A stretch of DNA of 64,000 nt from Pomacea canaliculata (taxonomy: Eukaryota; Mollusca; Gastropoda; Architaenioglossa; Ampullariidae): the NCBI RefSeq assembly GCF_003073045.1, contig NC_037592.1, positions 4,577,924 through 4,641,923 of the forward strand, written 5' to 3'. Of this stretch, positions 20,255 through 52,140 are shown piece by piece (positions within the stretch are counted from its first letter, which is position 1; each line of letters opens with the position of its first letter). The position numbers were made by a program, and so were the translations under genes. Under the pieces are notes generated by a model that saw nothing but the letters and a program-made list of their open reading frames with translations, ran no database searches and was not told where the DNA came from.

Positions 20255-20262
20255 GCCACGAC
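20255..20262. other. Empty target site of the nested transposon found in copy B
   Basis: The 8-bp sequence gccacgac is single here. In copy B it is duplicated at 51,496-51,503 and 58,538-58,545 around a 7.03-kb insertion. This gives direct evidence for the borders of that insertion. Confidence 0.85.
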
Positions 20263-21061: not shown

Positions 21062-21235
21062 TCGGTTCTATAAACCTTCAATAGTTTCGGCGGTATAAAT
21101 AAATGATAATAATAAATGCAACATTTGTACAGCGCATACTCACACTCCTAAGGAGCAAACCTGTCTGTAAAGTCCATTGAGCTTGCCTCCATGTGGGAAA
21201 TGCACTATAAAAATCCTATTATTATTATTTGTGCA
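21062..21235. repeat. SINE-like tail with ATT microsatellite (copy A)
   Basis: The stretch from the ataataataaatg run through gtgggaaatgcactataaaa to the ATTATTATTATT tail looks like the 3' end of an invertebrate SINE/LINE. The counterpart in copy B is near 59,105-59,281. Confidence 0.4.
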
Positions 21236-21459
21236 TGCACCCACTCGTCCACATGAGAGAGAGAGAGTGAGGAAAAGATGAAAACACTAACAGGTATCCA
21301 TGCAGTCTTTCGAACATAAATATAACTTATATAATGCAGTAAAGAATGTGTTTCTGGGGTATTAATTATATCTGACAGTCCAAGCAATCATTCATTGAAA
21401 GCTTCCTGCATCACACAAACTCAGCTGACTGTTCGATGTGTTATCTTTATTTTCTTCAG

Positions 21460-21568
21460 TGAACTACATAAGGCAGAGCTAACAAGTGACTATACTAGGG
21501 ACATCTTACAAAAGCAAGTAACAGTTATTTTGTGCAGATCAAGAGTCGAGTCCCAGGTCTATGTTGAG
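21460..21568 (+). CDS. Exon-like segment of unknown gene (copy A)
   Basis: A 109-nt segment with a strong acceptor (TTTATTTTCTTCAG) and donor (GAG|GTACG). Read in the one open phase it gives ELHKAELTSDYTRDILQKQV and then VTVILCRSRVESQVYVE in part. The same segment with the same splice sites and an open frame exists in copy B (59,507-59,615), differing by Arg versus Ser near the middle. No partner exons could be found on either side, and I do not recognise the protein. Confidence 0.4.
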
Positions 21569-22362
21569 GTACGATGTTTCAAAATTTTTTTACTTTACAA
21601 ATATATGGGCAAATAAATGACATTGAAAACAAAACAAAGAAACACCAGCTAATTGATGGTGTGGTTCATTCAAAGCTTTAGATTGTTCAGTTAATTTGCA
21701 AGTGTGATCTCACACAAAAAAAAAGACACAGACATGATTAGTTTGTGCTGCTCATTAAGAAAAATGCAGCAAACAATTAAAAAACATACATTTTTTCATT
21801 AAAAGAGAAACACCTTAGCTCCAAGCTTGCACACAAACTGAACTGCATGAAGTATTACCAACTGCTTGCAGCAAACAGGTGCCTAACCATTCAGTATTAA
21901 GAAGACTACATGTTACCTACAAAGAGAACAATACAGAAGACTGGCCATTCTAAGCATAACAAGAGACATGACTCTTCTAGAGAACAGGAAGCATTATTAG
22001 TCGACCCCCTCCCGCTCTCCCTCTGTCATGTGACTGTCACCCGGCCAGCAACCACCCCCCATCTCCAGCCTCCACCCTCCCTGTGTGCGTGGTGCTAGGT
22101 TCCATCCACCTAACTGCAATGTCCCACACTACCATAGAGTATAATAATCGAGCACTGCGTGGAATTTCACAACTTGTGCTTTTTAACAATCACAAAAAAG
22201 TGGCATAGTAGCGAGAGTTGGTGGTGGCATAGTAAATTTTTTTTTACATTGAATTTATAGTCGGGACCGAGCAAAAGTGGCATAGTAGCTGGGTGGCATA
22301 GTAGCGAGATTTGACTGTAGATGCCAAAGATATTAATTTTATTTTCATTTAGAAACAAATGA

Positions 22363-23064
22363 GCAAAATAGCTCAAGGCCTTAGACTGATGACAGGTCAA
22401 GGTAAAATCACTGAGGGCCCATCCAACACAAGCGAGACGATGTTTCTACAAGTACTTTAGATTGCAATGCTTCGTAAGCTTCGCCTCTGTAGTCTAGTGG
22501 ATAGGTGTGAGGCCTGATGTTTGAAAGTAGGTATGATCGAAACTTGGGGTGGCGATCGTTTTCATTTTGCTTTGGAATGTTTTTCGTTCTCTAATATGAT
22601 CAATTTTTTATCAAGCCTTTCATTAAAACCTGTTGATTGCCCAGAGAAGTCATGTAATCTAGCTGCGTATAGTTTTAAAAGTGATATAATGTTCTCAAAT
22701 GTTCTTTACTCAATTTTGTTGAAGATTCAACAGCATTAAATAATTGCTGATGAACCACTATGGTATTCCGCCTAAATTCATAAATAAATAAATTTTACTT
22801 TCATAAGTTTTAAATTCAGAAATATAAGTATCACATCAAACGAAAAACATTTCAAAGCAAAATATAAACGATCCCCACCCCAAGTTTCGAACACACCTAC
22901 TCTCAAACATAAGGCCTCAGATGTAACCATTAGACTACAGAGGAAAAGCTAACGAAGCATTGCAATCTAACGTACTTGTAGAAACATCGTCTCGCTTGTG
23001 TTGGATGGGCCCTCAGTGATTTTACCTTGACCTGTCATCAGTTTAAGGCCTTGAGCTATTTTGC
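22363..23064. mobile_element. Fold-back element: tRNA-like SINE in head-to-head inverted copies
   Basis: The arms at 22,363-22,597 and 22,839-23,064 are inverted copies of each other (with scattered mismatches), separated by about 240 bp of AT-rich DNA. Each arm contains a tRNA-like unit. In the left arm, 22,484-22,556 has an A-box-like TAGTCTAGTGGATAGG and a B-box-like GATCGAAACTTGG. This can be two SINE copies in opposite orientation or one long-TIR fold-back transposon. A stable hairpin RNA would form if it is transcribed. Confidence 0.6.
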
Positions 23065-23082
23065 CTGTCATAATTCACTTTA

Positions 23083-23367
23083 TGTCACCCTTCACAGTAT
23101 TTAAAAGTTGTAGAATTAGTCCCCAAGAACAAGTTTCATAGCTGTCAAAGAGTGAAGCGGAGGTTGGCTTAGAAGGGAAGTGTGCAAGGTCGCTGACGTC
23201 ACGCTTCCCGAAGGCTTCCGAAGTTCCGAAGGCTTCCGAAGCTGCTTCACTGTTCAAGAAAAAAAGATACGCGGGCGGGAGCCGACATGAAGCTGTCTCT
23301 TGTGTGTTTTCTATCTGGACAGTTTAATGAGTGCCACCACTAATACCCACAAACCAATAACACAACA
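23083..23367 (+). mobile_element. Probable 5' LTR remnant of a Ty3/gypsy element
   Basis: This stretch ends in ACAACA directly before a primer-binding site (23,368-23,381). It holds a GACGTCAC motif and a tandem aggcttccgaag repeat. The 5' border is uncertain because no second LTR is in the window to align. Confidence 0.45.
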
Positions 23368-23381
23368 TGGTGTCAGAAGTG
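23368..23381 (+). other. Retrotransposon primer-binding site (tRNA-Leu type)
   Basis: TGGTGTCAGAAGTG is complementary to the 3' end of many tRNA-Leu molecules (…CACTTCTGACACCA). It lies immediately after an LTR-like CA end, as expected for minus-strand priming in Ty3/gypsy elements. Confidence 0.65.
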
Positions 23382-23488
23382 AGCAGCAAAGTGCTAGCTG
23401 TGTGATTTCTCCAGAAACTTTCAGGTGGGCACGTTTTTCTCATTTTGAAATATTGCCCCGTCAGTTGCAAAGTGACATTTCTCGCAAG

Positions 23489-23578
23489 ATGGCAGAGACA
23501 CATCAGAGAAAACACTTCACTGCAAACGTTCCGGTTCCCTCAAAGCTGGATTTGTCTTCTAACATTGAAGTAAATTGA
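23489..23578 (+). pseudogene. Ty3/gypsy gag N-terminal remnant, interrupted
   Basis: About 30 codons beginning at ATG 23,489 (MAETHQRKH, then PVPSKLDLSSNIEVN) read like the start of a gypsy Gag, where a Trp-Lys-Lys-Phe motif normally follows. Here TGA stands in place of the tryptophan codon and the frame is lost afterwards. No protease, RT or integrase was found downstream, so this is a 5' fragment of a dead element. Confidence 0.55.
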
Positions 23579-24728
23579 AAAAAATTTCTTCGTGCAGTTT
23601 TCCTCTGTTTTGTGATTTCATCATTTCTCTATTCTGCGTTGCTACTGTATGATGACACTATGGCTTTCCAAGCTGTAGATCTGAATTCAGGGCCGTTGAG
23701 ATCCAGTACGGGCCCAGGGCAGACGACTTGCTAAACTGCCTGATTGTACACCAGCAAGTCAGCCTTACCATCGACATCACTTGTATTTCAGATACAAGAG
23801 CTTTTCTCGGAGTTTGCTTCTATGGCGGACACTAACAGTACTTTGCGCAGCTGCTACTAACACTGGCAGCTGAGAGTCTCAGCCGTTCCACGAGAAAGAA
23901 GTGCAAACTATTTGTAGTTTTGTGGTTATTTGTGGTTAATAGGGGCGATCACTGTAGATCTAACGGCGACGACTCCAGATAACAAGGATCGATGACATCG
24001 GAAAAATATTGAGAATATACCAAGACCATCTTAAGACTATGAAGGAATCTTATCATATTATACAATGACAAAGGGGATCGTCGCTTCACTTTCTTTACTG
24101 CAACTCAAGTTCGCTGTGACAGTGAGTGAAGCACGTGAGAGCGATCGACATCCAGCCTGTAGATCCAGTCAGTTTGCAGAATGCAACACAAAGACACTTA
24201 CATCATGCGGCTTGTAGATGTTGATCACAATCATCAGAGGGGGTCATCGTGCAGTTTGACAGTGTGGCCTGTATCGATCAGCTATATACAGGTCACAGAG
24301 ATACGACCACAGTGCATGTAGCTCAGCACTCGTCAAGAGGACTGAGGACTGTACTGCTGGGCCAAGCACCTGATGATCTTACCCTTCCTTTTTCCTACAA
24401 GGCCCATGTGAACATCTGTTTTTCTTTCTTCTGCTTTGTGGACCTATGTTTGTGAGTAGTGTTCATGCGCGTAAGGTAGGCCTTTTCATGTTCTTGTATT
24501 GCAGTCCTTAGTTGTAATGAGATGTATGGGAGCTGGAAGATGATGACCAGGACTTTAGAAAATAAATAATCAATATGCAAAAGAGTATATACTTACTAGC
24601 ACACTATGGTTACAAGTTTTACTGTTATCATTAGTGTAAATACCAAGGGTTGCTAAAAGACCATGTAACAACCCCAGACAACCATAATCTTTGCAAATGA
24701 TTAGGCACAATTGCAACTTACTTCATCT
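23579..24728. other. Gene-free stretch after the gypsy remnant
   Basis: No conserved domain, splice-supported exon or repeat terminus was recognised in this stretch. Confidence 0.4.
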
Positions 24729-25066
24729 TTATTGAGCATCCTTTTCATCCACATATCGCCGGATTAAGTCCATCACTTGGTGAAAAAGGCCTCTGAACTC
24801 TTCATCATTTAACGTAGAGGTTGAAAACATGAAGAAATATGTCAGTGCTTCATAAGCTGAAGCTCTATAACTCGAGGTCCTGATTTCTCTTGAAAGTCGA
24901 AAGACTGAAAAAAAAAATCGCTTGATATGATCATTAAGTTCATGAAAAAGAATATCGAAGTCATCCTCCTTTAATTTGTTTGTTGTAAACATGAAGAAAT
25001 GTGTTAACGCTTCTGCTGCTAACCATCTAGAATTTGAGGTCCTAATCTCTCTTGAAAGTCGAAAGA
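24729..25066 (-). CDS. Fused two-domain terminal exon of the microexon gene family
   Basis: A minus-strand exon with acceptor TTTTTTCAG at 25,067 and stop TAA at 24,729-24,731. It holds two tandem copies of the 59-residue domain seen in the cassettes to the right. The first is FRLSREIRTSNSRWLAAEAL to NDHIKRF and the second is VFRLSREIRTSSYRAS to RRYVDEKDAQ. The junction encodes FFFS. At DNA level this is a run of T followed by CAG, the polypyrimidine tract and acceptor of what must once have been a separate exon. An intron deletion has fused the two, and the old splice site is now read as protein or may still be used. Phase (two bases before the first codon) matches that of the 182-nt cassette exons. 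Function unknown. Confidence 0.6.
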
Positions 25067-25265
25067 CTGAAAAAACAAAAAAAAAAAAAAAAGATGCAAA
25101 AAGACTTAATAATTTATGTCATCAATACAGGCATTCTGAAAATTTCCTTTAAAAAGTTAAAAAAATGTTCTGTATTGTACGTACTGTTCGTATCATTGCT
25201 GTAGGTCAAATCACAACTTCCTTCAGAAACCACTCTGTAGAACAAAAATTGGAACTTACTTCAAT

Positions 25266-25604
25266 TTATTGATAGGGAGCCTCCTTTTCCTCCACATATC
25301 GCTTAATGTGATCATTCAGTTGGTGATCAAGAATATTAAAATCCTCCTCCTGTAATTGGACTGTTGTAAACATGAAGTTATAAGTTAATGCTTCAGCTGC
25401 CAGCCATCTGGTGTTAGACGTTCTAATGTCTCTTGAAAGTCTCATGGCTGAAAAAAAAAATATGCAAAAAGACTTAATAATTTATGTCATCAATACAGGC
25501 ATTCTGAAAATTTCCTTTAAAAAGTTAAAAAAATGTTCTGTATTGTACGTACTGTTTGTATCATCACTGAAATTGTAGCTGGAACTTGCTTCTGTGTTGT
25601 CATG
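25266..25604 (-). CDS. Cassette 1 (most 3', divergent): exons N5 and N6 of the microexon gene
   Basis: Exons 25,553-25,604 (52 nt) and 25,266-25,447 (182 nt, stop 25,266-25,268). N5 is identical to the other copies. N6 is identical only in its 5' third. The 3' part differs at many positions (FTTVQLQEEDFNILDHQLN and the ending EEKEAPYQ). The identity break inside N6 marks the point of unequal exchange that built the array. AATAAA overlaps the stop codon. Confidence 0.6.
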
Positions 25605-25774
25605 CTGCAAATAATTAAAAAAAGTTTTAATTAATGTGTCTAGGCATGCATATTTTTTTTTGGGGGGGGGGTTTACATTAAATTAACTTAACCTAAACCT
25701 AAAGGAAAAATTGTTCCACTAGGCTTGTACTTACTTTAAACGCTACACCAAGCACTCAAAGTAAACCCAGCCTG

Positions 25775-26115
25775 CAAGAGTTAAACGGGCCCGTTTCGGG
25801 CTGAGAAATGGGGCCGTTAAGGGAAGTTACACTCCCAGCCCGCCGTATTATGGGAGCCTAAAGTGCATCGGCCCCTTGCGGGTTTGGGAGAAATAACTCC
25901 CTCAGCCCTTCAAAGCCCCACCCTAAAAACACCTCGCAGCCCTTCCATAGTCCCTCAGCCCTCCATAGCCCCACCCTAAAAACACCTCGCAGCCCTTCCA
26001 TAGTCCCTCAGCCCTCCAAAGCCCCACCCTAAAAACACCTCGCAGCCCTTCAAAGCCCCTCTCAGCCCTCCAAAGCCCATCCTAAAAAACACCTTTCAGC
26101 CCTTCAAAGCACTTG
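25775..26115. repeat. GC-rich block and 53-bp minisatellite (unit 1; repeated in each unit)
   Basis: After a GC-rich segment with the perfect palindrome AAACGGGCCCGTTT come about three to four copies of a period of about 53 bp built on CTCGCAGCCCTTCCATAG and AGCCCCACCCTAAAAACA. Equivalent blocks begin near 28,548, 31,318, 34,085 and 36,854. Confidence 0.85.
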
Positions 26116-26139
26116 GTAAATACCAGCAGACAAAAAATA

Positions 26140-26812
26140 GACATGATTCAACAATTTATTAAATACAAGCAGATACACAAGGTTTTCATATTAATTTACA
26201 ACAAAGAATTTTTCACAAATGCCTGACCAAAAAATATTCATTGCAATTTATCATATACATATACAAGCAAAAAAAAAATAAAGGGTTTTAATATTTATTA
26301 CAACAAAGAATTTGAGTCTTCAAAAACTTCAGGCTAATTGTTGCGAATACCTGACCCCCCAAAAAAGAAAAAAAAAATCATTACAATCTTCAAAACAATT
26401 TATCATATACAAGCAAAAGATAAACAAGGATTGAATATTTATTTACAACAAAGAATTTGTCACAAATGCCTGACCCCCACCTCCAAAAAAAGAAAAAAGT
26501 CATTACAATCTTCAAAAACAACTTATCATATACATATACAAGCAAAAAATATACATGGTTTTAACATTATTTACAACCAAGAATTTGAGTCTTTACAGTC
26601 TTCAGGCTAGATGTCGTGAATACCTGACCAAAAAAAAACAAAAATCCTTACAATCTTCACAATCTTCACAACAATGTACTACATACAACACAAAAAGGAG
26701 AGAAGAAATTTATTATATACAAGCCAAAACTAAACATGGTTTTAACATTTATTTACAACAAAGAATTTGAGTCTTCAAAGTCTTCAGGCTAGTTGTTGCG
26801 AAAAAAGCTTTA
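26140..26812. repeat. AT-rich minisatellite (unit 1; repeated in each unit)
   Basis: Five or so diverged copies of a motif of about 110-140 bp with the core ACAACAAAGAATTTGAGTCT and TTCAGGCTAGTTGTTGCGA, separated by A runs. Apparent ORFs of 60-120 codons in this block are low-complexity and change frame between units, so they are not genes. Confidence 0.85.
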
Positions 26813-26949
26813 ATTAGATTTCACAACAGCCACTTTCCCCCCTAAATTCTCTACACACAGATTCCTCTTCCAGCCTATCAAATTTCTCACCTGAAACATG
26901 GGATTGCTGCTGGAGTCATTCCTTGTTCACCTACATTTCGTAACTTAAT

Positions 26950-27546
26950 TCATATGTGGAGCAAGCTTCGAAACATTTCTCTGTGCTCCTCAACAGCATG
27001 ACCCATCTGCAATCAAAATATTAGTCCTTTAATGATAAGCAAAAAACAAGGCATTTCAATTTATTCACTTCTTACCGATGTGCCATTCAGTTGAAGTAAA
27101 ACGTATTTCTGTTTCTTACTATTTATGAGCTTTAAAGCAGCTAGGAGGCAACAGGAAGTTGATGGCCAACACCACTTATGTAAATAGATTCATGTAGGCT
27201 TGCTTCTAGTGTTGATTACTATTTGTGGATTAGAAAGGAAAACTAATAAGAGGTAGAATCACTAGAACCATATCACATCAAAGCAGTTGCACTTGTAAAC
27301 AGGTGTACAACATGCAGAGATTACCCAGAACAGGGTAATAGGCAGGGTTAACTTTCTTCATAAACAAATCATGAATGATAAAGCCATGCTTACATTGATA
27401 AATTAAACACATGCATGGTTATTTTCTTTGATTTCTTATTTCACTGACCATCAGATGGCTTTGTCCTTGGACTTGTTCCTCCATTCTTGCCTGTTACTTC
27501 CAAACTATTTGTAAGCAGTGGCAGATATAATATCCCCAGGCTGCTG
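26950..27546 (-). CDS. Exon chain X1-X2-X3 (unit 1), unknown gene inside the tandem unit
   Basis: Three exon-like segments on the minus strand join in phase: X1 27,449-27,546 (acceptor TTTGTGCACAG, donor GATG|GTCAGT), X2 27,076-27,140 (acceptor CCTCCTAG, donor TCG|GTAAGA) and X3 26,950-27,006 (acceptor TTGATTGCAG, stop TGA 26,950-26,952). The 72-residue product reads SSLGILYLPLLTNSLEV, a polar stretch with SPRTKPSD, KLINSKKQKYVLLQLNGTS, then a helix MGHAVEEHREMFRSLLHI. No 5' exon with the required phase was found, so the start is missing. A related chain occurs in units 2-5. Function unknown. Confidence 0.4.
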
Positions 27547-28038
27547 CTGTGCACAAAGGGAAATTGTGATGGTTAAAAGTCAAATACAAATGTTTCATTG
27601 TAATACATTTGTACATGAAACTACAGTCTACTTCAGGGTCATATGCAACCCAAACAGGAAAACATATTGACTTGCAAAAACAAAACAAAAACAATCAAGT
27701 ATGCTCTCAGTATCCCAACCTTTGCCCTACATAACTAGCACCACAATTTCTACCTGCCTGCCCCACTATTTCTATCAAAGAAGCATTTTGACTAAAAGAG
27801 CCTGCTCTGTAGTAACAATTATCTCGTTATGAGTAGCAACATCTTTCATGTATTGATGAAATGTCAGTGGTTTTCAGTGTATGGTTAGATATGCTATCAC
27901 TCTCTTTGTGGTGTCAGTTTTGGCAATAAAAACACTGAATCAGTGACAAAAGAACACAAGGATATGCTGTGCATGATGACTTTGTTTTCACCTTTATCGT
28001 GAAAAAATTACTTTATTTTATTTATTACTTACTTCAAT

Positions 28039-28379
28039 TTATTGATTGTGAGGCTCCTTCGACTCCACATATTGCTTAATGTGATTGTTTAATTCATGGT
28101 ATAAAATATTAAAGTCGTCTTCCTGTAGCCTTCCTGTTGAGAACATAAAGTTGTAACTTAAGGCTTCAGCTGCCAGCCATCTGGTGTTAGACGTTCTAAT
28201 GTCTCTTGAAAGTCTCATGGCTGAAAAAAAAAAATATGCAAAAAGACTTAATAATTTATGTCATCAATACAGGCATTCTGAAAATTTCCTTTAAAAAGTT
28301 AAAAAAAATGTTCTGTATTGTACGTACTGTTTGTATCATCACTGAAATTGTAGCTGGAACTTGCTTCTGTGTTGTCATG
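28039..28379 (-). CDS. Cassette 2: exons N5 and N6 of the microexon gene
   Basis: Exons 28,328-28,379 and 28,039-28,220 (stop 28,039-28,041). The coding sequence is identical to cassette 6, with the AATAAA overlapping the stop and two more AATAAA-type signals just downstream. Confidence 0.6.
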
Positions 28380-30989
28380 CTGCAAATAATTAAAAAAAGT
28401 TTTAATTAATGTGTCTAGGCATGCATATTTTTTTTTTGGGGGGGGGGTTTACATTAAATTAACTTAACCTAAACCTAAAGAAAAATTGTTCCACTAGGCT
28501 TGTACTTACTTTAAACGCTACACCCAAGCACTCAAAGTAAACCCAGCCTGCAAGAGTTAAACGGGCCCGTTTCGGGCTGAGAAATGGGGCCGTTAAGGGA
28601 AGTTACACTCCCAGCCCGCCGTATTATGGGAGCCTAAAGTGCATCGGCCCCTTGCGGGTTTGGGAGAAATAACTCCCTCAGCCCTTCAAAGCCCCACCCT
28701 AAAAACACCTCGCAGCCCTTCCATAGTCCCTCAGCCCTCCATAGCCCCACCCTAAAAACACCTCGCAGCCCTTCCATAGTCCCTCAGCCCTCCAAAGCCC
28801 CACCCTAAAAACACCTCGCAGCCCTTCAAAGCCCCTCTCAGCCCTCCAAAGCCCCATCCTAAAAAACACCTTTCAGCCCTTCAAAGCACTTGGTAAATAC
28901 CAGCAGACAAAAAATAGACATGATTCAACAATTTATTAAATACAAGCAGATACACAAGGTTTTCATATTAATTTACAACAAAGAATTTTTCACAAATGCC
29001 TGACCAAAAAATATTCATTGCAATTTATCATATACATATACAAGCAAAAAAAAAAAATATAGGGTTTTAATATTTATTACAACAAAGAATTTGAGTCTTC
29101 AAAAACTTCAGGCTAATTGTTGCGAATACCTGACCCCCCAAAAAAGAAAAAAAAATCATTACAATCTTCAAAACAATTTATCATATACAAGCAAAAGATA
29201 AACAAGGATTGAATATTTATTTACAACAAAGAATTTGTCACAAATGCCTGACCCCCACCTCCAAAAAAAGAAAAAAGTCATTACAATCTTCAAAAACAAC
29301 TTATCATATACATATACAAGCAAAAAATATACATGGTTTTAACATTATTTACAACCAAGAATTTGAGTCTTTACAGTCTTCAGGCTAGATGTCGTGAATA
29401 CCTGACAAAAAAAAAACAAAAATCCTTACAATCTTCACAATCTTCACAACAATGTACTACATACAACACAAAAAGGAGAGAAGAAATTTATTATATACAA
29501 GCCAAAACTAAACATGGTTTTAACATTTATTTACAACAAAGAATTTGAGTCTTCAAAGTCTTCAGGCTAGTTGTTGCGAAAAAAGCTTTAATTAGATTTC
29601 ACAACAGCCACTTTCCCCCTAAATTCTCTACACACAGATTCCTCTTCCAGCCTATCAAATTTCTCACCTGAAACATGGGATTGCTGCTGGAGTCATTCCT
29701 TGTTCACCTACATTTCGTAACTTAATTCATATGTGGAGCAAGCTTCGAAACATTTCTCTGTGCTCCTCAACAGCATGACCCATCTGCAATCAAAATATTA
29801 GTCCTTTAATGATAAGCAAAAACAAGGCATTTCAATTTATTCACTTCTTACCGATGTGCCATTCAGTTGAAGTAAAACGTATTTCTGTTTCTTACTATTT
29901 ATGAGCTTTAAAGCAGCTAGGAGGCAACAGGAAGTTGATGGCCAACACCACTTATGTAAATAGATTCATGTAGGCTTGCTTCTAGTGTTGATTACTATTT
30001 GTGGATTAGAAAGGAAAACTAATAAGAGGTAGAATCACTAGAACCATATCACATCAAAGCAGTTGCACTTGTAAACAGGTGTACAACATGCAGAGATTAC
30101 CCAGAACAGGGTAATAGGCAGGGTTAACTTTCTTCATAAACAAATCATGAATGATAAAGCCATGCTTACATTGATAAATTAAACACATGCATGGTTATTT
30201 TCTTTGATTTCTTATTTCACTGACCATCAGATGGCTTTGTCCTTGGACTTGTTCCTCCATTCTTGCCTGTTACTTCCAAACTATTTGTAAGCAGTGGCAG
30301 ATATAATATCCCCAGGCTGCTGCTGTGCACAAAGGGAAATTGTGATGGTTAAAAGTCAAATACAAATGTTTCATTGTAATACATTTGTACATGAAACTAC
30401 AGTCTACTTCAGGGTCATATGCAACCCAAACAGGAAAACATATTGACTTGCAAAAACAAAACAAAAACAATCAAGTATGCTCTCAGTATCCCAACCTTTG
30501 CCCTACATAACTAGCACCACAATTTCTACCTGCCTGCCCCACTATTTCTATCAAAGAAGCATTTTGACTAAAAGAGCCTGCTCTGTAGTAACAATTATCT
30601 CGTTATGAGTAGCAACATCTTTCATGTATTGATGAAATGTCAGTGGTTTTCAGTGTATGGTTAGATATGCTATCACTCTCTTTGTGGTGTCAGTTTTGGC
30701 AATAAAAACACTGAATCAGTGACAAAAGAACACAAGGATATGCTGTGCATGATGACTTTGTTTTCACCTTTATCGTGAAAAAATTACTTTATTTTATTTA
30801 TTACTTACTTCAATTTATTGATTGTGAGGCTCCTTCGACTCCACATATTGCTTAATGTGATTGTTTAATTCATGGTATAAAATATTAAAGTCGTCTTCCT
30901 GTAGCCTTCCTGTTGAGAACATAAAGTTGTAACTTAAGGCTTCAGCTGCCAGCCATCTGGTGTTAGACGTTCTAATGTCTCTTGAAAGT
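28214..30989. repeat. Tandem 2.77-kb unit 2
   Basis: Second unit of the array. Same content and order as unit 1, with homopolymer-length differences, for example in the T/G run near 28,430. Confidence 0.95.
29727..30322 (-). CDS. Exon chain X1-X2-X3 (unit 2)
   Basis: Second copy of the 72-residue chain. All three splice pairs and frames are preserved as in unit 1. Confidence 0.35.
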
Positions 30990-31153
30990 CTCATGGCTGA
31001 AAAAAAAAAGATGCAAAAAGACTTAATAATTTATGTCATCAATACAGGCATTCTGAAAATTTCCTTTAAAAAGTTAAAAAAATGTTCTGTATTGTACGTA
31101 CTGTTTGTATCATCACTGAAATTGTAGCTGGAACTTGCTTCTGTGTTGTCATG
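30815..31153 (-). CDS. Cassette 3: exons N5 and N6 of the microexon gene
   Basis: Exons 31,102-31,153 and 30,815-30,996 (stop 30,815-30,817). Coding sequence identical to cassette 6. Confidence 0.6.
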
Positions 31154-33758
31154 CTGCAAATAATTAAAAAAAGTTTTAATTAATGTGTCTAGGCATGCAT
31201 ATTTTTTTTTTTTGGGGGGGGGGGTTTACATTAAATTAACTTAACCTAAACCTAAAGAAAAATTGTTCCACTAGGCTTGTACTTACTTTAAACGCTACAC
31301 CCAAGCACTCAAAGTAAACCCAGCCTGCAAGAGTTAAACGGGCCCGTTTCGGGCTGAGAAATGGGGCCGTTAAGGGAAGTTACACTCCCAGCCCGCCGTA
31401 TTATGGGAGCCTAAAGTGCATCGGCCCCTTGCGGGTTTGGGAGAAATAACTCCCTCAGCCCTTCAAAGCCCCACCCTAAAAACACCTCGCAGCCCTTCCA
31501 TAGTCCCTCAGCCCTCCATAGCCCCACCCTAAAAACACCTCGCAGCCCTTCCATAGTCCCTCAGCCCTCCAAAGCCCCACCCTAAAAACACCTCGCAGCC
31601 CTTCAAAGCCCCTCTCAGCCCTCCAAAGCCCCATCCTAAAAAACACCTTTCAGCCCTTCAAAGCACTTGGTAAATACCAGCAGACAAAAAATAGACATGA
31701 TTCAACAATTTATTAAATACAAGCAGATACACAAGGTTTTCATATTAATTTACAACAAAGAATTTTTCACAAATGCCTGACCAAAAAATATTCATTGCAA
31801 TTTATCATATACATATACAAGCAAAAAAAAAATAAAGGGTTTTAATATTTATTACAACAAAGAATTTGAGTCTTCAAAAACTTCAGGCTAATTGTTGCGA
31901 ATACCTGACCCCCCAAAAAAGAAAAAAAAATCATTACAATCTTCAAAACAATTTATCATATACAAGCAAAAGATAAACAAGGATTGAATATTTATTTACA
32001 ACAAAGAATTTGTCACAAATGCCTGACCCCCACCTCCAAAAAAAGAAAAAAGTCATTACAATCTTCAAAAACAACTTATCATATACATATACAAGCAAAA
32101 ATATACATGGTTTTAACATTATTTACAACCAAGAATTTGAGTCTTTACAGTCTTCAGGCTAGATGTCGTGAATACCTGACAAAAAAAAACAAAAATCCTT
32201 ACAATCTTCACAATCTTCACAACAATGTACTACATACAACACAAAAAGGAGAGAAGAAATTTATTATATACAAGCCAAAACTAAACATGGTTTTAACATT
32301 TATTTACAACAAAGAATTTGAGTCTTCAAAGTCTTCAGGCTAGTTGTTGCGAAAAAAGCTTTAATTAGATTTCACAACAGCCACTTTCCCCCTAAATTCT
32401 CTACACACAGATTCCTCTTCCAGCCTATCAAATTTCTCACCTGAAACATGGGATTGCTGCTGGAGTCATTCCTTGTTCACCTACATTTCGTAACTTAATT
32501 CATATGTGGAGCAAGCTTCGAAACATTTCTCTGTGCTCCTCAACAGCATGACCATCTGCAATCAAAATATTAGTCCTTTAATGATAAGCAAAAACAAGGC
32601 ATTTCAATTTATTCACTTCTTACCGATGTGCCATTCAGTTGAAGTAAAACGTATTTCTGTTTCTTACTATTTATGAGCTTTAAAGCAGCTAGGAGGCAAC
32701 AGGAAGTTGATGGCCAACACCACTTATGTAAATAGATTCATGTAGGCTTGCTTCTAGTGTTGATTACTATTTGTGGATTAGAAAGGAAAACTAATAAGAG
32801 GTAGAATCACTAGAACCATATCACATCAAAGCAGTTGCACTTGTAAACAGGTGTACAACATGCAGAGATTACCCAGAACAGGGTAATAGGCAGGGTTAAC
32901 TTTCTTCATAAACAAATCATGAATGATAAAGCCATGCTTACATTGATAAATTAAACACATGCATGGTTATTTTCTTTGATTTCTTATTTCACTGACCATC
33001 AGATGGCTTTGTCCTTGGACTTGTTCCTCCATTCTTGCCTGTTACTTCCAACTATTTGTAAGCAGTGGCAGATATAATATCCCCAGGCTGCTGCTGTGCA
33101 CAAAGGGAAATTGTGATGGTTAAAAGTCAAATACAAATGTTTCATTGTAATACATTTGTACATGAAACTACAGTCTACTTCAGGGTCATATGCAACCCAA
33201 ACAGGAAAACATATTGACTTGCAAAAACAAAACAAAACAATCAAGTATGCTCTCAGTATCCCAACCTTTGCCCTACATAACTAGCACCACAATTTCTACC
33301 TGCCTGCCCACTATTTCTATCAAAGAAGCATTTTGACTAAAAGAGCCTGCTCTGTAGTAACAATTATCTCGTTATGAGTAGCAACATCTTTCATGTATTG
33401 ATGAAATGTCAGTGGTTTTCAGTGTATGGTTAGATATGCTATCACTCTCTTTGTGGTGTCAGTTTTGGCAATAAAAACACTGAATCAGTGACAAAAGAAC
33501 ACAAGGATATGCTGTGCATGATGACTTTGTTTTCACCTTTATCGTGAAAAAATTACTTTATTTTATTTATTACTTACTTCAATTTATTGATTGTGAGGCT
33601 CCTTCGACTCCACATATTGCTTAATGTGATTGTTTAATTCATGGTATAAAATATTAAAGTCGTCTTCCTGTAGCCTTCCTGTTGAGAACATAAAGTTGTA
33701 ACTTAAGGCTTCAGCTGCCAGCCATCTGGTGTTAGACGTTCTAATGTCTCTTGAAAGT
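30990..33758. repeat. Tandem 2.77-kb unit 3
   Basis: Third unit of the array. It carries single-base losses inside X1 and X3 that break that chain in this copy. Confidence 0.95.
32500..33093 (-). pseudogene. Exon chain X1-X2-X3 (unit 3), frame broken
   Basis: Compared with units 1, 2, 4 and 5, this copy lacks one base in an A run of X1 (near 33,050) and one C at the start of X3 (near 32,552). Both shift the frame. Either the copy is decaying or these are consensus errors in homopolymers. Confidence 0.4.
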
Positions 33759-33922
33759 CTCATGGCTGAAAAAAAAAATATGCAAAAAGACTTAATAATT
33801 TATGTCATCAATACAGGCATTCTGAAAATTTCCTTTAAAAAGTTAAAAAAATGTTCTGTATTGTACGTACTGTTTGTATCATCACTGAAATTGTAGCTGG
33901 AACTTGCTTCTGTGTTGTCATG
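33584..33922 (-). CDS. Cassette 4: exons N5 and N6 of the microexon gene
   Basis: Exons 33,871-33,922 and 33,584-33,765 (stop 33,584-33,586). Coding sequence identical to cassette 6. Confidence 0.6.
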
Positions 33923-36526
33923 CTGCAAATAATTAAAAAAGTTTTAATTAATGTGTCTAGGCATGCATATTTTTTTTTGGGGGGGGGGGTTTACATTAAA
34001 TTAACTTAACCTAAACCTAAAGAAAAATTGTTCCACTAGGCTTGTACTTACTTTAAACGCTACACCCAAGCACTCAAAGTAAACCCAGCCTGCAAGAGTT
34101 AAACGGGCCCGTTTCGGGCTGAGAAATGGGGCCGTTAAGGGAAGTTACACTCCCAGCCCGCCGTATTATGGGAGCCTAAAGTGCATCGGCCCCTTGCGGG
34201 TTTGGGAGAAATAACTCCCTCAGCCCTTCAAAGCCCCACCCTAAAAACACCTCGCAGCCCTTCCATAGTCCCTCAGCCCTCCATAGCCCCACCCTAAAAA
34301 CACCTCGCAGCCCTTCCATAGTCCCTCAGCCCTCCAAAGCCCCACCCTAAAAACACCTCGCAGCCCTTCAAAGCCCCTCTCAGCCCTCCAAAGCCCCATC
34401 CTAAAAAACACCTTTCAGCCCTTCAAAGCACTTGGTAAATACCAGCAGACAAAAAATAGACATGATTCAACAATTTATTAAATACAAGCAGATACACAAG
34501 GTTTTCATATTAATTTACAACAAAGAATTTTTTCACAAATGCCTGACCAAAAAATATTCATTGCAATTTATCATATACATATACAAGCAAAAAAAAATAA
34601 AGGGTTTTAATATTTATTACAACAAAGAATTTGAGTCTTCAAAAACTTCAGGCTAATTGTTGCGAATACCTGACCCCCCAAAAAAGAAAAAAAAATCATT
34701 ACAATCTTCAAAACAATTTATCATATACAAGCAAAAGATAAACAAGGATTGAATATTTATTTACAACAAAGAATTTGTCACAAATGCCTGACCCCCACCT
34801 CCAAAAAAGAAAAAAGTCATTACAATCTTCAAAAACAACTTATCATATACATATACAAGCAAAAATATACATGGTTTTAACATTATTTACAACCAAGAAT
34901 TTGAGTCTTTACAGTCTTCAGGCTAGATGTCGTGAATACCTGACCAAAAAAAAAAAAAATCCTTACAATCTTCACAATCTTCACAACAATGTACTACATA
35001 CAACACAAAAAGGAGAGAAGAAATTTATTATATACAAGCCAAAACTAAACATGGTTTTAACATTTATTTACAACAAAGAATTTGAGTCTTCAAAGTCTTC
35101 AGGCTAGTTGTTGCGAAAAAAGCTTTAATTAGATTTCACAACAGCCACTTTCCCCCCTAAATTCTCTACACACAGATTCCTCTTCCAGCCTATCAAATTT
35201 CTCACCTGAAACATGGGATTGCTGCTGGAGTCATTCCTTGTTCACCTACATTTCGTAACTTAATTCATATGTGGAGCAAGCTTCGAAACATTTCTCTGTG
35301 CTCCTCAACAGCATGACCCATCTGCAATCAAAATATTAGTCCTTTAATGATAAGCAAAAACAAGGCATTTCAATTTATTCACTTCTTACCGATGTGCCAT
35401 TCAGTTGAAGTAAAACGTATTTCTGTTTCTTACTATTTATGAGCTTTAAAGCAGCTAGGAGGCAACAGGAAGTTGATGGCCAACACCACTTATGTAAATA
35501 GATTCATGTAGGCTTGCTTCTAGTGTTGATTACTATTTGTGGATTAGAAAGGAAAACTAATAAGAGGTAGAATCACTAGAACCATATCACATCAAAGCAG
35601 TTGCACTTGTAAACAGGTGTACAACATGCAGAGATTACCCAGAACAGGGTAATAGGCAGGGTTAACTTTCTTCATAAACAAATCATGAATGATAAAGCCA
35701 TGCTTACATTGATAAATTAAACACATGCATGGTTATTTTCTTTGATTTCTTATTTCACTGACCATCAGATGGCTTTGTCCTTGGACTTGTTCCTCCATTC
35801 TTGCCTGTTACTTCCAAACTATTTGTAAGCAGTGGCAGATATAATATCCCCAGGCTGCTGCTGTGCACAAAGGGAAATTGTGATGGTTAAAAGTCAAATA
35901 CAAATGTTTCATTGTAATACATTTGTACATGAAACTACAGTCTACTTCAGGGTCATATGCAACCCAAACAGGAAAACATATTGACTTGCAAAAACAAAAC
36001 AAAAACAATCAAGTATGCTCTCAGTATCCCAACCTTTGCCCTACATAACTAGCACCACAATTTCTACCTGCCTGCCCACTATTTCTATCAAAGAAGCATT
36101 TTGACTAAAAGAGCCTGCTCTGTAGTAACAATTATCTCGTTATGAGTAGCAACATCTTTCATGTATTGATGAAATGTCAGTGGTTTTCAGTGTATGGTTA
36201 GATATGCTATCACTCTCTTTGTGGTGTCAGTTTTGGCAATAAAAACACTGAATCAGTGACAAAAGAACACAAGGATATGCTGTGCATGATGACTTTGTTT
36301 TCACCTTTATCGTGAAAAAATTTCTTTATTTTATTTATTACTTACTTCAATTTATTGATTGTGAGGCTCCTTCGACTCCACATATTGCTTAATGTGATTG
36401 TTTAATTCATGGTATAAAATATTAAAGTCGTCTTCCTGTAGCCTTCCTGTTGAGAACATAAAGTTGTAACTTAAGGCTTCAGCTGCCAGCCATCTGGTGT
36501 TAGACGTTCTAATGTCTCTTGAAAGT
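33759..36526. repeat. Tandem 2.77-kb unit 4
   Basis: Fourth unit of the array, same content and order. Confidence 0.95.
35265..35860 (-). CDS. Exon chain X1-X2-X3 (unit 4)
   Basis: Fourth copy of the chain. Splice sites and frames as in unit 1. Confidence 0.35.
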
Positions 36527-36691
36527 CTCATGGCTGAAAAAAAAAAATATGCAAAAAGACTTAATAATTTATGTCATCAATACAGGCATTCTGAAAATTT
36601 CCTTTAAAAAGTTAAAAAAATGTTCTGTATTGTACGTACTGTTTGTATCATCACTGAAATTGTAGCTGGAACTTGCTTCTGTGTTGTCATG
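36352..36691 (-). CDS. Cassette 5: exons N5 and N6 of the microexon gene
   Basis: Exons 36,640-36,691 and 36,352-36,533 (stop 36,352-36,354). Coding sequence identical to cassette 6. Confidence 0.6.
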
Positions 36692-39301
36692 CTGCAAATA
36701 ATTAAAAAAAGTTTTAATTAATGTGTCTAGGCATGCATATTTTTTTTTTGGGGGGGGGGTTTACATTAAATTAACTTAACCTAAACCTAAAAGAAAAATT
36801 GTTCCACTAGGCTTGTACTTACTTTAAACGCTACACCCAAGCACTCAAAGTAAACCCAGCCTGCAAGAGTTAAACGGGCCCGTTTCGGGCTGAGAAATGG
36901 GCCGTTAAGGGAAGTTACACTCCCAGCCCGCCGTATTATGGGAGCCTAAAGTGCATCGGCCCCTTGCGGGTTTGGGAGAAATAACTCCCTCAGCCTTCAA
37001 AGCCCCACCCTAAAAACACCTCGCAGCCCTTCCATAGTCCCTCAGCCCTCCATAGCCCCACCCTAAAAACACCTCGCAGCCCTTCCATAGTCCCTCAGCC
37101 CTCCAAAGCCCCACCCTAAAAACACCTCGCAGCCCTTCAAAGCCCCTCTCAGCCCTCCAAAGCCCCATCCTAAAAAACACCTTTCAGCCCTTCAAAGCAC
37201 TTGGTAAATACCAGCAGACAAAAAATAGACATGATTCAACAATTTATTAAATACAAGCAGATACACAAGGTTTTCATATTAATTTACAACAAAGAATTTT
37301 TCACAAATGCCTGACCAAAAAATATTCATTGCAATTTATCATATACATATACAAGCAAAAAAAAAAATAAAGGGTTTTAATATTTATTACAACAAAGAAT
37401 TTGAGTCTTCAAAAACTTCAGGCTAATTGTTGCGAATACCTGACCCCCCAAAAAAGAAAAAAAAAATCATTACAATCTTCAAAACAATTTATCATATACA
37501 AGCAAAAAGATAAACAAGGATTGAATATTTATTTACAACAAAGAATTTGTCACAAATGCCTGACCCCCACCTCCAAAAAAAGAAAAAAAGTCATTACAAT
37601 CTTCAAAAACAACTTATCATATACATATACAAGCAAAAAATATACATGGTTTTAACATTATTTACAACCAAGAATTTGAGTCTTTACAGTCTTCAGGCTA
37701 GATGTCGTGAATACCTGACAAAAAAAAAAAAAATCCTTACAATCTTCACAATCTTCACAACAATGTACTACATACAACACAAAAAGGAGAGAAGAAATTT
37801 ATTATATACAAGCCAAAACTAAACATGGTTTTAACATTTATTTACAACAAAGAATTTGAGTCTTCAAAGTCTTCAGGCTAGTTGTTGCGAAAAAAGCTTT
37901 AATTAGATTTCACAACAGCCACTTTCCCCCCTAAATTCTCTACACACAGATTCCTCTTCCAGCCTATCAAATTTCTCACCTGAAACATGGGATTGCTGCT
38001 GGAGTCATTCCTTGTTCACCTACATTTCGTAACTTAATTCATATGTGGAGCAAGCTTCGAAACATTTCTCTGTGCTCCTCAACAGCATGACCCATCTGCA
38101 ATCAAAATATTAGTCCTTTAATGATAAGCAAAAAACAAGGCATTTCAATTTATTCACTTCTTACCGATGTGCCATTCAGTTGAAGTAAAACGTATTTCTG
38201 TTTCTTACTATTTATGAGCTTTAAAGCAGCTAGGAGGCAACAGGAAGTTGATGGCCAACACCACTTATGTAAATAGATTCATGTAGGCTTGCTTCTAGTG
38301 TTGATTACTATTTGTGGATTAGAAAGGAAAACTAATAAGAGGTAGAATCACTAGAACCATATCACATCAAAGCAGTTGCACTTGTAAACAGGTGTACAAC
38401 ATGCAGAGATTACCCAGAACAGGGTAATAGGCAGGGTTAACTTTCTTCATAAACAAATCATGAATGATAAAGCCATGCTTACATTGATAAATTAAACACA
38501 TGCATGGTTATTTTCTTTGATTTCTTATTTCACTGACCATCAGATGGCTTTGTCCTTGGACTTGTTCCTCCATTCTTGCCTGTTACTTCCAAACTATTTG
38601 TAAGCAGTGGCAGATATAATATCCCCAGGCTGCTGCTGTGCACAAAGGAAATTGTGATGGTTAAAAGTCAAATACAAATGTTTCATTGTAATACATTTGT
38701 ACATGAAACTACAGTCTACTTCAGGGTCATATGCAACCCAAACAGGAAAACATATTGACTTGCAAAAACAAAACAAAAACAATCAAGTATGCTCTCAGTA
38801 TCCCAACCTTTGCCCTACATAACTAGCACCACAATTTCTACCTGCCTGCCCCACTATTTCTATCAAAGAAGCATTTTGACTAAAAGAGCCTGCTCTGTAG
38901 TAACAATTATCTCGTTATGAGTAGCAACATCTTTCATGTATTGATGAAATGTCAGTGGTTTTCAGTGTATGGTTAGATATGCTATCACTCTCTTTGTGGT
39001 GTCAGTTTTGGCAATAAAAACACTGAATCAGTGACAAAAGAACACAAGGATATGCTGTGCATGATGACTTTGTTTTCACCTTTATCGTGAAAAAATTACT
39101 TTATTTTATTTATTACTTACTTCAATTTATTGATTGTGAGGCTCCTTCGACTCCACATATTGCTTAATGTGATTGTTTAATTCATGGTATAAAATATTAA
39201 AGTCGTCTTCCTGTAGCCTTCCTGTTGAGAACATAAAGTTGTAACTTAAGGCTTCAGCTGCCAGCCATCTGGTGTTAGACGTTCTAATGTCTCTTGAAAG
39301 T
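36527..39301. repeat. Tandem 2.77-kb unit 5
   Basis: Fifth full unit. A sixth, partial unit (39,302 to about 39,628) follows and stops at the sequence agtaaac, where unique DNA carrying leader exon N4 begins. Confidence 0.95.
38039..38635 (-). CDS. Exon chain X1-X2-X3 (unit 5)
   Basis: Fifth copy of the chain. X1 to X3 frames are kept. One G is missing in the intronic tract just upstream of X1. Confidence 0.35.
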
Positions 39302-40440
39302 CTCATGGCTGAAAAAAAAAAATATGCAAAAAGACTTAATAATTTATGTCATCAATACAGGCATTCTGAAAATTTCCTTTAAAAAGTTAAAAAAATGTTC
39401 TGTATTGTACGTACTGTTTGTATCATCACTGAAATTGTAGCTGGAACTTGCTTCTGTGTTGTCATGCTGCAAATAATTAAAAAAAGTTTTAATTAATGTG
39501 TCTAGGCATGCATATTTTTTTTTTTGGGGGGGGGTTACATTAAATTAACTTAACCTAAACCTAAAGAAAAATTGTTCCACTAGGCTTGTACTTACTTTAA
39601 ACGCTACACCCAAGCACTCAAAGTAAACATGGCAGTCATGTTTTAAATAAAATCAGAGGGACTTACTTGTGATGGGGGTTTTTTCTTGTCTGCTGCTGTT
39701 TTGAAAAAAAAAAACAAACAGAAAAAAGTCATTTCAAAATTATAAAACATTACATCTGAAACATTTAAGAATCTTTTTTCCCTCCAAGTTCATTTTGAAT
39801 TAAATTAATTAATAAATAATATATTTACTTTAGTTATATAAAAGTTCTGTATTGTACTTACAACTTGTTCCAGGCACGGGTATTATCGTCTGAGACTGCA
39901 AATAATTTAAAAAAGTCTTAATTAATGTGTCTAGGCATGCATGTGTGTGTGGGGGAACATTAAATTAACTTAACCTGATCCTAAAGAAAGATTGTTGCTT
40001 TATACTGACCAGAAGCCAAGCTTCTATTTTTTTTAAAAAAAGACATTATAAATATGCATATTTCAACCTATTAGTATAAGAATACCTATATAACACAATG
40101 ATTTGAGAGTGAGTCAAGGGGGCGTAACTAAGATATTGTAATAGAAAATAAGATTAACCAAATAAAGGGACTTACATCTGATTTACTCCTTTTCTTTTGC
40201 TGCGCCTCTGTTGGTGACTGCAAATAATTTAAAAAAGTCTTAGGCATGCATATTTTGGGGGTGTATATTAAATTAACTTAAACTGATCCTAAAGAAAAAT
40301 TGCTGCACTTGGCTTTTACTTTAAGCATACCAGAAGCCAAGCTTTTTTTTTTTAAAAAAAAGAAAGACATTATACATGTAAATATTTAACCATGAGGGAC
40401 TTACGGTTTGGGCCCGCTTCCCAGATTCTTTGGATTCCAT
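39127..40440 (-). CDS. Microexon gene, 124 aa, unknown function (leader plus cassette 6)
   Basis: Six coding exons on the minus strand: N1 40,405-40,440 (ATG at 40,438-40,440), N2 40,176-40,217, N3 39,862-39,895, N4 39,667-39,695, N5 39,415-39,466 and N6 39,127-39,308 (stop 39,127-39,129). Every exon has AG and GTAAG/GTAC borders, and the lengths 36+42+34+29+52+182 = 375 nt close exactly into one frame. The product begins MESKESGKRAQT, then SPTEAQQKKRSKSD (basic, NLS-like), SQTIIPVPGTS, ADKKKPPSQ and HDNTEASSSYNFSDDTN. It ends in a 59-residue mostly helical domain (RLSRDIRTSNTRWLAAEAL ... YHELNNHIKQYVESKEPHNQ). There is no signal peptide or membrane segment. N4 has a CAGCAG double acceptor that would add or drop one residue. 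N1 is preceded by an acceptor, so a 5' UTR exon lies further right. I do not recognise the family. Confidence 0.7.
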
Positions 40441-40600: not shown

Positions 40601-42154
40601 TGGTATCGCCCGTGCGAGGGAAGGTAGAAGTACACGCCGTGCGGAATCCTAGCGGCCAGTCGTCTTCAATTACTACCCGTACAAAAGGCGTCGCCGAGTA
40701 GCCTGGCCATAAAACCCGACCATTTGCACTTGCCGTAGGGTCTGAGCGCTGAGGCGAAACGACTTCTATCTGAACATTCTGTCGGGGTTAGGACTGAGTG
40801 TATTCTCCACAAACAAGCAAAACTAGAATATATGAAGGAGAGAAGAATGAACAGAGCAACTGACAAACATAAAAACAACTGAATTTTCAAACTTCAATTT
40901 TATTGCTTTTTTTATCTGTCTTTTTATCTCTTATCTTTCTTTCCTCATTAGCGGGGATATCAATATTCGGCTTGCCAAGTTTTGAGTGCGACGTGCATGT
41001 ACACTAGTGTTCACACTGTAGTATTATTATTTTATTTTCCGGTTTCTATGTACACATTGTTTCTTACACTCTCCATCTGGAAAATGACAGTCGTGTCCAT
41101 CTCATAAATTCCATGTCCTTTCTACTACACCATTTTCTTTGCCCCCCGGACCAGACGCCACACCTGAATGTCCACATTGCTTCCAAGCACCTTGCATAAC
41201 AGCAGGAGGTCTCGACGTCGAGTTCATCGGGAAGGGACAGGCGGCTTGTCCTCAAAATCGAGCAATTCGGAATAGCATATATACGAGGTACTGGAAAATG
41301 CTAGACTTTGTAGGACTCTGGAGGGACAGGAGATATCTGGATAGAAAAATCGCTTTGGCAGAAGGTGAATGGATGCTGTGCCACAGGCGTGAAGTGATGC
41401 CCACTTGTGTCGTGCAAAAAGTACGAACACTGTACCCAAACCCAGATGCAGTGCCGTATGTCGGTCACCAATGGGAATAAAAAAAAACTAAACAAGACGA
41501 ATAAAATCTAAGTTTAAAAATTCCATTGCCTTTTTGTTTGTGTTATTTGGGTTGTTTGCCTTTGTCTCCTTTCCTGTCCACTCTCTCTTACAAGGGAGAA
41601 AATACAAACAAAACCAGGGTGCTAAACTGGTCCTAACCCTTTTGATTATACAAGTCTTCTCCGCGTCCAGTTCTCGTTTTGTGACTCAGAAGACGCAAGC
41701 ACCGATGACCTCCCCCCGGCACAATGGTCGGGTTAATAAGAAGAGAAAGACCGTGGTCACTAGTTGCAGTCGTAATTGTTGCCATTTGTAAAAAAGTTCG
41801 AACATGCATTCAAACCGAGGTGTACTTTAGGTCAGTCATCAGGAGTAATGAACTGAAAGTATTAAATATTATATCCCCTCTTATGAGTAAAGAAAGATGT
41901 AAGGAAAGACAGTATGTTCAGATAGAAGCCGTTTCGCCTCACTTTGTCTGGTAGGACAACCCTAACCCTGACAGTATGTTCAGTTGCAACCCGTTTCACT
42001 TCAGCTTTCTAACCGCCAACACCAAGTACTCGGCTGAGAAACACGTTTTATCGCCTGCGATCTCCACCCTCCTCGGGGCCAGGGTAGCAATTAGGGAAGA
42101 CTGACCGCTGGTACACCACCGTGTACTCCTACCTTCCCTCGCACGGGCGAAACC
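40601..42154. mobile_element. DNA element with about 200-bp inverted repeats carrying a 113-aa ORF
   Basis: The left arm (40,601 to about 40,800) starts TGGTATCGCCCGTGCGAGGG. The right arm (about 41,950-42,154), read on the minus strand, starts TGGTTTCGCCCGTGCGAGGG, and similarity continues through GGTTAGG(G/A). Arms are imperfect, about 75-80% by eye. No clear target duplication was found. It sits between the microexon gene's leader and a solo LTR. Confidence 0.7.
41139..41480 (+). CDS. 113-aa Cys-containing protein inside the long-TIR element
   Basis: A single-exon ORF starting near a Pro-rich MPPGPDATPECPHC. It contains the CPHCFQAPC knuckle (C-x2-C-x4-C), an aromatic/basic middle (TRYWKMLDFVGLWRDRRYLD) and a C-terminal block CHRREVMPTCVV and NPDAVPYVGHQWE. 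The Cys/His pairs could bind zinc. From memory, similar uncharacterised proteins (Cys knuckle, W-x-D-x-RYL-x-K, RRE-x-MP-x-CV, GH-x-W) are expanded in some aquatic invertebrate genomes. Its position in a TIR element suggests transposon-borne spread. No DDE or nuclease motif is visible, so it is not a transposase I can recognise. Confidence 0.5.
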   Translation: MPPGPDATPECPHCFQAPCITAGGLDVEFIGKGQAACPQNRAIRNSIYTRYWKMLDFVGLWRDRRYLDRKIALAEGEWMLCHRREVMPTCVVQKVRTLYPNPDAVPYVGHQWE

Positions 42155-42418
42155 ATTTGAAAACACGCCCATTTCGACTTCGGCCTTTAAAACACTTTCG
42201 CCCATTGACGAAAGATTCAAGGAATGCAGGCAGCACATCGCGCACAATGTTTATCTTTTGAAAATTCTGGATCGATCAATGATTTAGCTAGGACAAAAAA
42301 TTAACTTATCTTTAAAAACAAGCAAACAAAAAAAATTGAGTTTTTATTTCTCTCCCTCTGATTCATGCTCTTCTTGCTATCACAAACCGTCATTTGATCA
42401 CCTATATAGACAGACCTA

Positions 42419-42779
42419 TGTAACCGAGTGGTGCGTGGTGAGGGGAGTAGAACAGTGACCACAACAGTCCAGCACCCAAATCAGAAAGGCAGGAGCCTGT
42501 CAGCAGTTACACAACTCTTTTAATGCCAATAGATCTACAGTCACGGCTGCGTCGCTTGTCTCGCACCTTCTCTGCGGAGTTTTCTCCCCTGTCCTTACGT
42601 CTCAGCCCTGCCCTTATATACCTCGCGGGTTGGTCCCTTTTCGCGCTCTTTTGCATCAGGGTTGTTTTCGCGCTCTTTTGCATCAGCGTTGTTTTCGCGC
42701 TCTTTTACAATCGTACCTTTACTTACTGGCATGCATCAGCAGATCTATCTAACAAGCGCTGGACTACCGGCCCTCTACA
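42419..42779 (-). mobile_element. Solo LTR with 4-bp target duplication
   Basis: A 361-bp block beginning TGTAGAGGGCCGG and ending CTCGGTTACA on the minus strand, flanked by CCTA at 42,415-42,418 and 42,780-42,783. A TATA box (TATATAAGG) lies at about 42,612-42,620 on the minus strand. Upstream of it are three tandem copies of a unit of about 27 bp containing AAAAGAGCGCGAAAA (42,638-42,718), likely enhancer repeats. No internal retroviral-type genes are next to it. Confidence 0.75.
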
Positions 42780-52134: not shown

Positions 52135-52140
52135 AAGGCA

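Follow-up and report, generated by a model that had tools for sequence, protein, structure and literature searches.

A small gene of the snail Pomacea canaliculata has probably grown by repeated duplication of an internal module, with a recent amplification of the last, terminal copy and use of the tail nearest to the head of the gene. The gene lies on the minus strand of the window, by which we mean the whole 64,000-nt stretch of DNA analysed here (contig NC_037592.1). As assembled, it has four leader exons (N1 to N4) once each, then six copies of exon N5, six of exon N6 and a fused, N6-like double exon. The five near-indistinguishable copies are more suggestive of a recently amplified tail than of a means to produce a variety of proteins.

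Layout of the locus

The exons were found in a search of both strands that tolerated up to 33% substitutions; GT and AG stand at the borders of those examined, and the joined frames are open. A preliminary description of this DNA had claimed a single set of N1-N4, and that claim holds, as do its orientation, coordinates and exon model. The leader exons, placed by the exon search and, for N2 to N4, by joined translation, are as follows.

40405..40440, minus strand: N1, exon with the start codon, 36 nt coding, phase 0 out, with an acceptor-like tttttttttcag before it
40176..40217, minus strand: N2, 42-nt microexon, phase 0-0
39862..39895, minus strand: N3, 34-nt microexon, phase 0-1
39667..39695, minus strand: N4, 29-nt microexon, phase 1-0

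The sequence before N1 and intron 3-4 are homologous (E 6e-36), the 92 bp upstream of N1 being 94.6% identical to part of that intron. Because the acceptor-like tttttttttcag stands in this homologous stretch, an additional 5′ exon further upstream is likely. The position of N1 behind an acceptor also led us to consider a trans-spliced leader, which was set aside because such leaders are not known to be established in gastropods. At N4, whose acceptor reads CAGCAG, a 3-nt splice variant is possible. N4 also gives three plus-strand matches with nine substitutions each, which we take for chance A-rich matches. By eye, the leader is rich in lysine.

The gene is flanked on one side by a choline/ethanolaminephosphotransferase gene on the minus strand (exon 10876-11055, PDB 8gyw match at 2.5e-20) and on the other by a leucine-rich-repeat gene (plus strand; 43810-44034, Pfam LRR_4, 3.1e-9), which we take to be DNAAF1. 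A 455-aa open frame at 53681-55048 has four matches at E ≤0.01 among 8,000 candidates scored, all to uncharacterised Pomacea canaliculata proteins (identity 69-80%, covering 35-97% of the frame), which by itself probably points to an apple snail or a near relative. We do not regard as coding the remaining open frames in the units, namely, plus-strand frames over the repeats and a 93-aa frame on the minus strand at 32999-33280. Sequence comparison yielded no further N6-like exon elsewhere in the window (next-best E 0.15), and neither a known structured RNA at the gathering threshold nor a tRNA (ARAGORN, bacterial code) was found there.

The array of terminal exons

Downstream of the leader, a homologous segment runs from 39,628 to 25,390 (14,239 bp; BLAST borders, rechecked). 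It is made up of five units, delimited by the exon search and BLAST borders, plus a 377-bp partial sixth unit.

36856..39628, minus strand: unit C6 (2,773 bp), adjoining the leader, with part of the N4-N5 intron, N5 (39415-39466), N6 (39127-39308) and 3′ flank
34085..36855, minus strand: unit C5 (2,771 bp), with N5 (36640-36691) and N6 (36352-36533)
31320..34084, minus strand: unit C4 (2,765 bp), with N5 (33871-33922) and N6 (33584-33765)
28543..31319, minus strand: unit C3 (2,777 bp), with N5 (31102-31153) and N6 (30815-30996)
25767..28542, minus strand: unit C2 (2,776 bp), with N5 (28328-28379) and N6 (28039-28220)

The N5-to-N5 spacing of units C6-C2 is 2,769-2,775 bp, and a repetition of this kind cannot be due to chance. 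The 52-bp N5 is identical in all six copies, which share an AG acceptor and a GTACGT donor, and the 182-bp N6 is identical in five of six, the remaining copy (25266-25447) differing at 32 positions. Both exons do occur six times in one orientation, as was first described. At all five unit starts after the first (36855, 34084, 31319, 28542, and 25766), the border reads GCTGGG followed by TTTACTTTGAG; on the leader side of the first unit, it is GCCATG that precedes TTTACTTTGAG.

Beyond the full units, the array passes into diverged sequence.

25266..25766, minus strand: partial unit C1, with N5 (25553-25604) and a chimaeric N6 (25266-25447); array-type down to 25390, diverged (N6b) from 25389
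25185..25234, minus strand: N5c, a degenerate N5-like exon placed by sequence comparison; the intron after it is almost the same as the N5-N6 intron
24729..25066, minus strand: fused terminal exon holding two diverged copies of the N6 domain, N6c1 from 25066 and N6c2 with its acceptor at 24904 and stop at 24731-24729

After homopolymer compression, which sets run lengths apart, C1 equals C6 and C2 down to 25,390. It diverges from 25,389, 58 nt into N6, with 32 differences in the remaining 124 nt of the exon. Since the homology ends inside N6, C1 is a chimaera. The cassettes had earlier been called near-identical; this is right for C2-C6, but C1 matches the units only to the point just given. 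Counted by eye from the N6b GTAAGT, N5c starts 25 nt after the end of N6b, and, likewise by eye, it is not frame-compatible with N4, neither nearby acceptor giving the needed frame. N6c1 is without an end of its own; it runs into the pyrimidine tract and acceptor of N6c2, both of which are read in frame.

Coding potential and predicted products

The predicted joined-exon products are 124 aa through C6, 124 aa through C1, 176 aa through the fused N6c1-N6c2 and 122 aa through N6c2 alone, and all are open. With exon phases of 0-0 for N1 and N2, 0-1 for N3, 1-0 for N4, 0-1 for N5 and 1-stop for N6, none of the six phase-compatible exon paths from N1 to N6 meets an internal stop on translation. Between N6 paralogues, pS and pN are 0.74 and 0.16 for the second half of a/b, 0.89 and 0.15 for a/c1, 0.48 and 0.17 for b/c1, 0.98 and 0.32 for a/c2, and 0.57 and 0.26 for c1/c2; the stretches are short (29-47 codons) and some sequences are common to several comparisons, all five of which agree. 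Given a protein conserved over strongly diverged synonymous sites, the N6 domain is most likely protein-coding and constrained.

For the protein of this gene, Pfam gave only sub-threshold matches, and N6 alone, used as a query, found no relative among PDB sequences. Nor did a relative emerge from 5.8 billion proteins (6 and 877 candidates, all with E above 10), in searches that reach relatives of similar length sharing exact 5-residue words. A viral origin was considered and rejected, since no relative is encoded at any of the 184 pattern matches in viral contigs. With no relative in the protein searches, no function can be named from the sequence. AlphaFold2, run from four N6 paralogues, gives three helices with a mean pLDDT of 71.8 and a pTM of 0.41, a model of moderate confidence that is too weak for a fold name to be assigned.

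The tails of C2-C6 give one protein (five of five identical), and only C1 and the fused exon differ; joined translations bear out the earlier statement that these two would provide different C termini. The same description had seen in the identical proteins of cassettes 2-6 a sign of dosage or 3′-end choice. The protein is indeed the same, but dosage or 3′-end choice among these units is putative, the units being almost indistinguishable and their number itself provisional.

Differences between units and copy number

Compared with their majority consensus, the five units show 36 indels and 7 substitutions. Thirty-three of these indels fall in runs of at least three bases, one falls in a run of two, one involves a single base, and one is mixed; the substitutions are located, by eye, in or beside runs. 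Elsewhere in the window, two duplicates of 1,294 and 234 columns have 23 and 5 substitutions with 3 and 0 gaps, i.e., 28 substitutions versus 3 gaps, a contrast with the array for which the Fisher p is 1e-10, the array events not being independent. After homopolymer compression, any two units disagree in 0-6 of some 1,850 columns. The sole candidate for a unit-specific SNP outside run-length change is an A to C at 31010 in C3; the same C is found at the matching place in the intron before N6c1 (25093). This substitution may be real, and the shared C at 31010 and 25093 suggests that some units may carry true differences or conversion. That candidate aside, the differences look like sequencing error. 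They are thus no basis for trusting any unit-specific SNP except 31010, or the count of five, and with a single candidate SNP, it would be hard to count N4-N5 junctions per cassette by unit SNPs.

These data bear on whether the array has been over-expanded or miscounted by the assembler, with fewer or more identical units in the animal, which we regard as possible if rather doubtful. The excess of indels over substitutions would fit it, and so would the variants common to pairs of units, which conflict with one another (C4/C5, C4/C3, and C6/C2, two each). A leucine-rich-repeat exon outside the array also seems to shift frame at a short run. According to the genome description (PMC6129957), the published data consist of PacBio reads with a mean of 10.1 kb, base-corrected by Pilon with Illumina reads; the array spans 14.2 kb. 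However, an indel-heavy pattern would be equally expected of uncorrected long-read error in a true multi-copy array, and at least one unit-to-unit type junction must exist, because at the last border unit sequence abuts C1, and C1 is continuous with the unique N6b sequence. That the animal has five units is what we infer from one assembly with homopolymer noise. The recent tail amplification that we favor overlaps with a miscounted array and does not depend on the number five.

Introns and growth of the gene

Introns 1-2, 2-3 and 4-5 form one family (E 5e-19 to 1e-27), all of phase 0, while introns 3-4 and 5-6, both of phase 1, are alike over their first 30 nt (87%, E 5e-5). Intron family and intron phase (0 and 1) therefore coincide, which makes the gene look like a ladder of a frame-neutral two-exon module. 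On this pattern, N2 may be a fused exon pair, with the acceptor of one intron class and the donor of the other.

When N5-N6a is compared with N5c-N6c1, the intron agrees at 105 of 106 aligned positions and the exons agree at 127 of 193 (p 7.6e-14; a run-length difference was set aside as gaps). Four other block comparisons point the same way, with introns at 133/162, 115/146, 132/159 and 92/106 versus exons at 15/27, 15/30, 20/33 and 26/39 (p 0.002-0.008); these blocks overlap and so are not independent. Fast protein change does not explain why introns are more alike than exons, as many of the N6 exon differences are synonymous. In our reading, the N5-N6 intron would have undergone recent conversion, with conversion of the exons disfavored. 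Mobile introns (introners) were rejected for N5-N6, since the flanking exons are themselves homologous.

We envision that frame-neutral intron-exon modules were duplicated repeatedly inside the gene, with the phases keeping the frame. In the latest event, the terminal module, comprising part of intron 4, N5, N6 and 3′ flank, would have been amplified into five 2.77-kb units, probably by unequal recombination between older terminal modules, and C1 marks where homogenisation stopped, 58 nt into N6. If old units have been kept identical by conversion, the amplification would not be recent. Most likely, splicing joins the leader to the closest N5-N6, that of C6, where the RNA would end. C2-C5 would then be redundant spare tails, yielding the same protein if used.

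Other readings of expression

AATAAA overlaps the stop in all seven ends, and all three types (N6a, N6b, and N6c2) carry a donor-like GAAGTAAGT starting 3-4 nt downstream of the stop. N6 could therefore act as a composite terminal exon, at which the RNA is either cleaved or spliced onward. Together with the open, constrained domains retained by C1 and the fused exon, this is consistent with a working alternative-3′-end locus of the lola type, in which regulated cis (or trans) splicing would join the leader to any cassette and C1 and the fused exon would be functional alternatives. We find this unlikely, given that C2-C6 encode the same protein and most of the array would add no diversity. A very unlikely reading is a position-counted 3′-end switch. 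Here, the poly(A) signal of a composite N6 would compete with the conserved donor-like site, and the RNA would either end or continue by splicing into the next identical N5-N6. Cassette number would set 3′-end length and how much of the one protein is made, with the differing tails at the end of the series reached only when early ends are suppressed; ongoing homogenisation of the introns, with the exons staying distinct, would keep the switch in place.

The preliminary description had cassettes 1-5, unless silent, expressed only via the shared leader, read-through or chimaeric splicing. This is too strong, as an in-frame ATG lies two bases downstream of the N6a acceptor and could, on paper, start a 59-aa product lacking the leader. 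Each unit might, on that basis, be a small transcription unit of its own, making the N6 domain alone. The ATG is missing from N6c1 and N6c2, however, and is therefore probably not a normal start. No TATAWAWR motif occurs on either strand from 21,334 to 39,834, although many promoters have none, and independent units of this sort seem extremely improbable. Splicing of the leader to C6 remains the reading that we prefer.

Comparison with known systems

In mod(mdg4), common 5′ exons are joined to alternative 3′ exons. Schistosome micro-exon genes have very short symmetric exons in tandem and encode a secreted protein with a signal peptide. The snail gene resembles the latter in its several very short, phase-compatible exons in tandem but differs in its repeated terminal exons, its two exon phases and its occurrence in a snail; its phases are mixed (0-0, 0-1, and 1-0), and by eye no signal peptide is evident at the predicted N terminus.

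It had been said that no named system has this design, but Drosophila lola has a constant head and several tails, its common amino-terminal exons being joined to unique carboxy-terminal exons (PMC1947980). The snail locus likewise combines a constant set of N-terminal exons with several terminal exons that lie downstream and share the frame. By that account, lola tails are unique and mostly carry zinc fingers, whereas here five of six N5-N6 tails are identical, different C-terminal domains come from C1 and the fused exon only, and use of the tails is putative. The layout itself is thus a known one, and the five identical tails are its unusual form. Among the matches listed for open-licence PMC papers, we recognised no report of this gene or of an array of identical terminal exons.

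Partial (intragenic) tandem duplication repeats a gene segment without its 5′ end; partial duplicates are reviewed in PMC3449122. The repeated segment here also lacks a 5′ end, with one consistent internal junction at five of five borders. What differs is that a single intact leader stands upstream of all the copies, which share its orientation, and any of them therefore remains a possible last exon of the gene. Conotoxin genes, from what the consulted extract of PMC3862624 states, are gastropod genes in which the introns are conserved and the coding exons diverge, and here too introns are more alike than exons between duplicated parts. In the snail gene, by comparison with that extract, many of the differences in N6 are synonymous and the protein is constrained, so that old divergence, and not rapid protein change, stands beside a near-identical intron. 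We make no claim that the gene encodes a toxin.

Significance

Should the array prove an effect of assembly, the locus would be a good example of how identical units and homopolymer noise can mimic a multi-cassette gene. The near-identical intron between diverged N5-N6 exons offers a concrete test of how gene conversion and selection split a locus at exon borders. If real, the array would clearly exemplify a gene that has amplified its tail alone behind a single head, and it would show how a frame-neutral two-exon module can serve to build a gene.

Variation among the array units

Five copies carry A at a position where C is common to 31010, in unit C3 of the tandem array, and 25093, in the intron before N6c1 (the first half of the fused terminal exon); the C at 31010 is the sole candidate for a true variant among the units. 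Assembly noise seems to be present outside the array too, since a leucine-rich-repeat exon at 44689-44921 appears to shift frame at a short run.

Sequences flanking the gene

Duplicated sequence is dispersed on either side of the gene, at 18092-21999 and 49309-60044.

Dispersed duplicates and reverse transcriptase fragment
18092-20262 versus 49309-51503: duplicate pair, 89%
20254-20487 and 20706-21999 versus 58537-58770 and 58757-60044: duplicate pairs, 98%
17259-18116, minus strand: reverse transcriptase fragment (RVT_1, 5.3e-14)

The reverse transcriptase fragment probably derives from a LINE. There is also a long open frame of 455 aa at 53681-55048, for which a Pfam search gave no match; its four protein matches are all from Pomacea canaliculata and of unknown function.

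Upstream of the start-codon exon N1, at a distance of 160 bp, lies an element (40601-42155) that spans about 1.55 kb and carries long, nested inverted repeats, the 36-nt outer arms of which are 94% complementary. An open frame within it (41088-41480) has a weak, subthreshold profile match to P2RX7_C. At 42419-42779, on the strand of the gene, is a 361-bp solo-LTR-like sequence with TG...CA ends and TAGG at either side. It contains TATATAAG at 42613-42620, and it might serve as a promoter of the gene.
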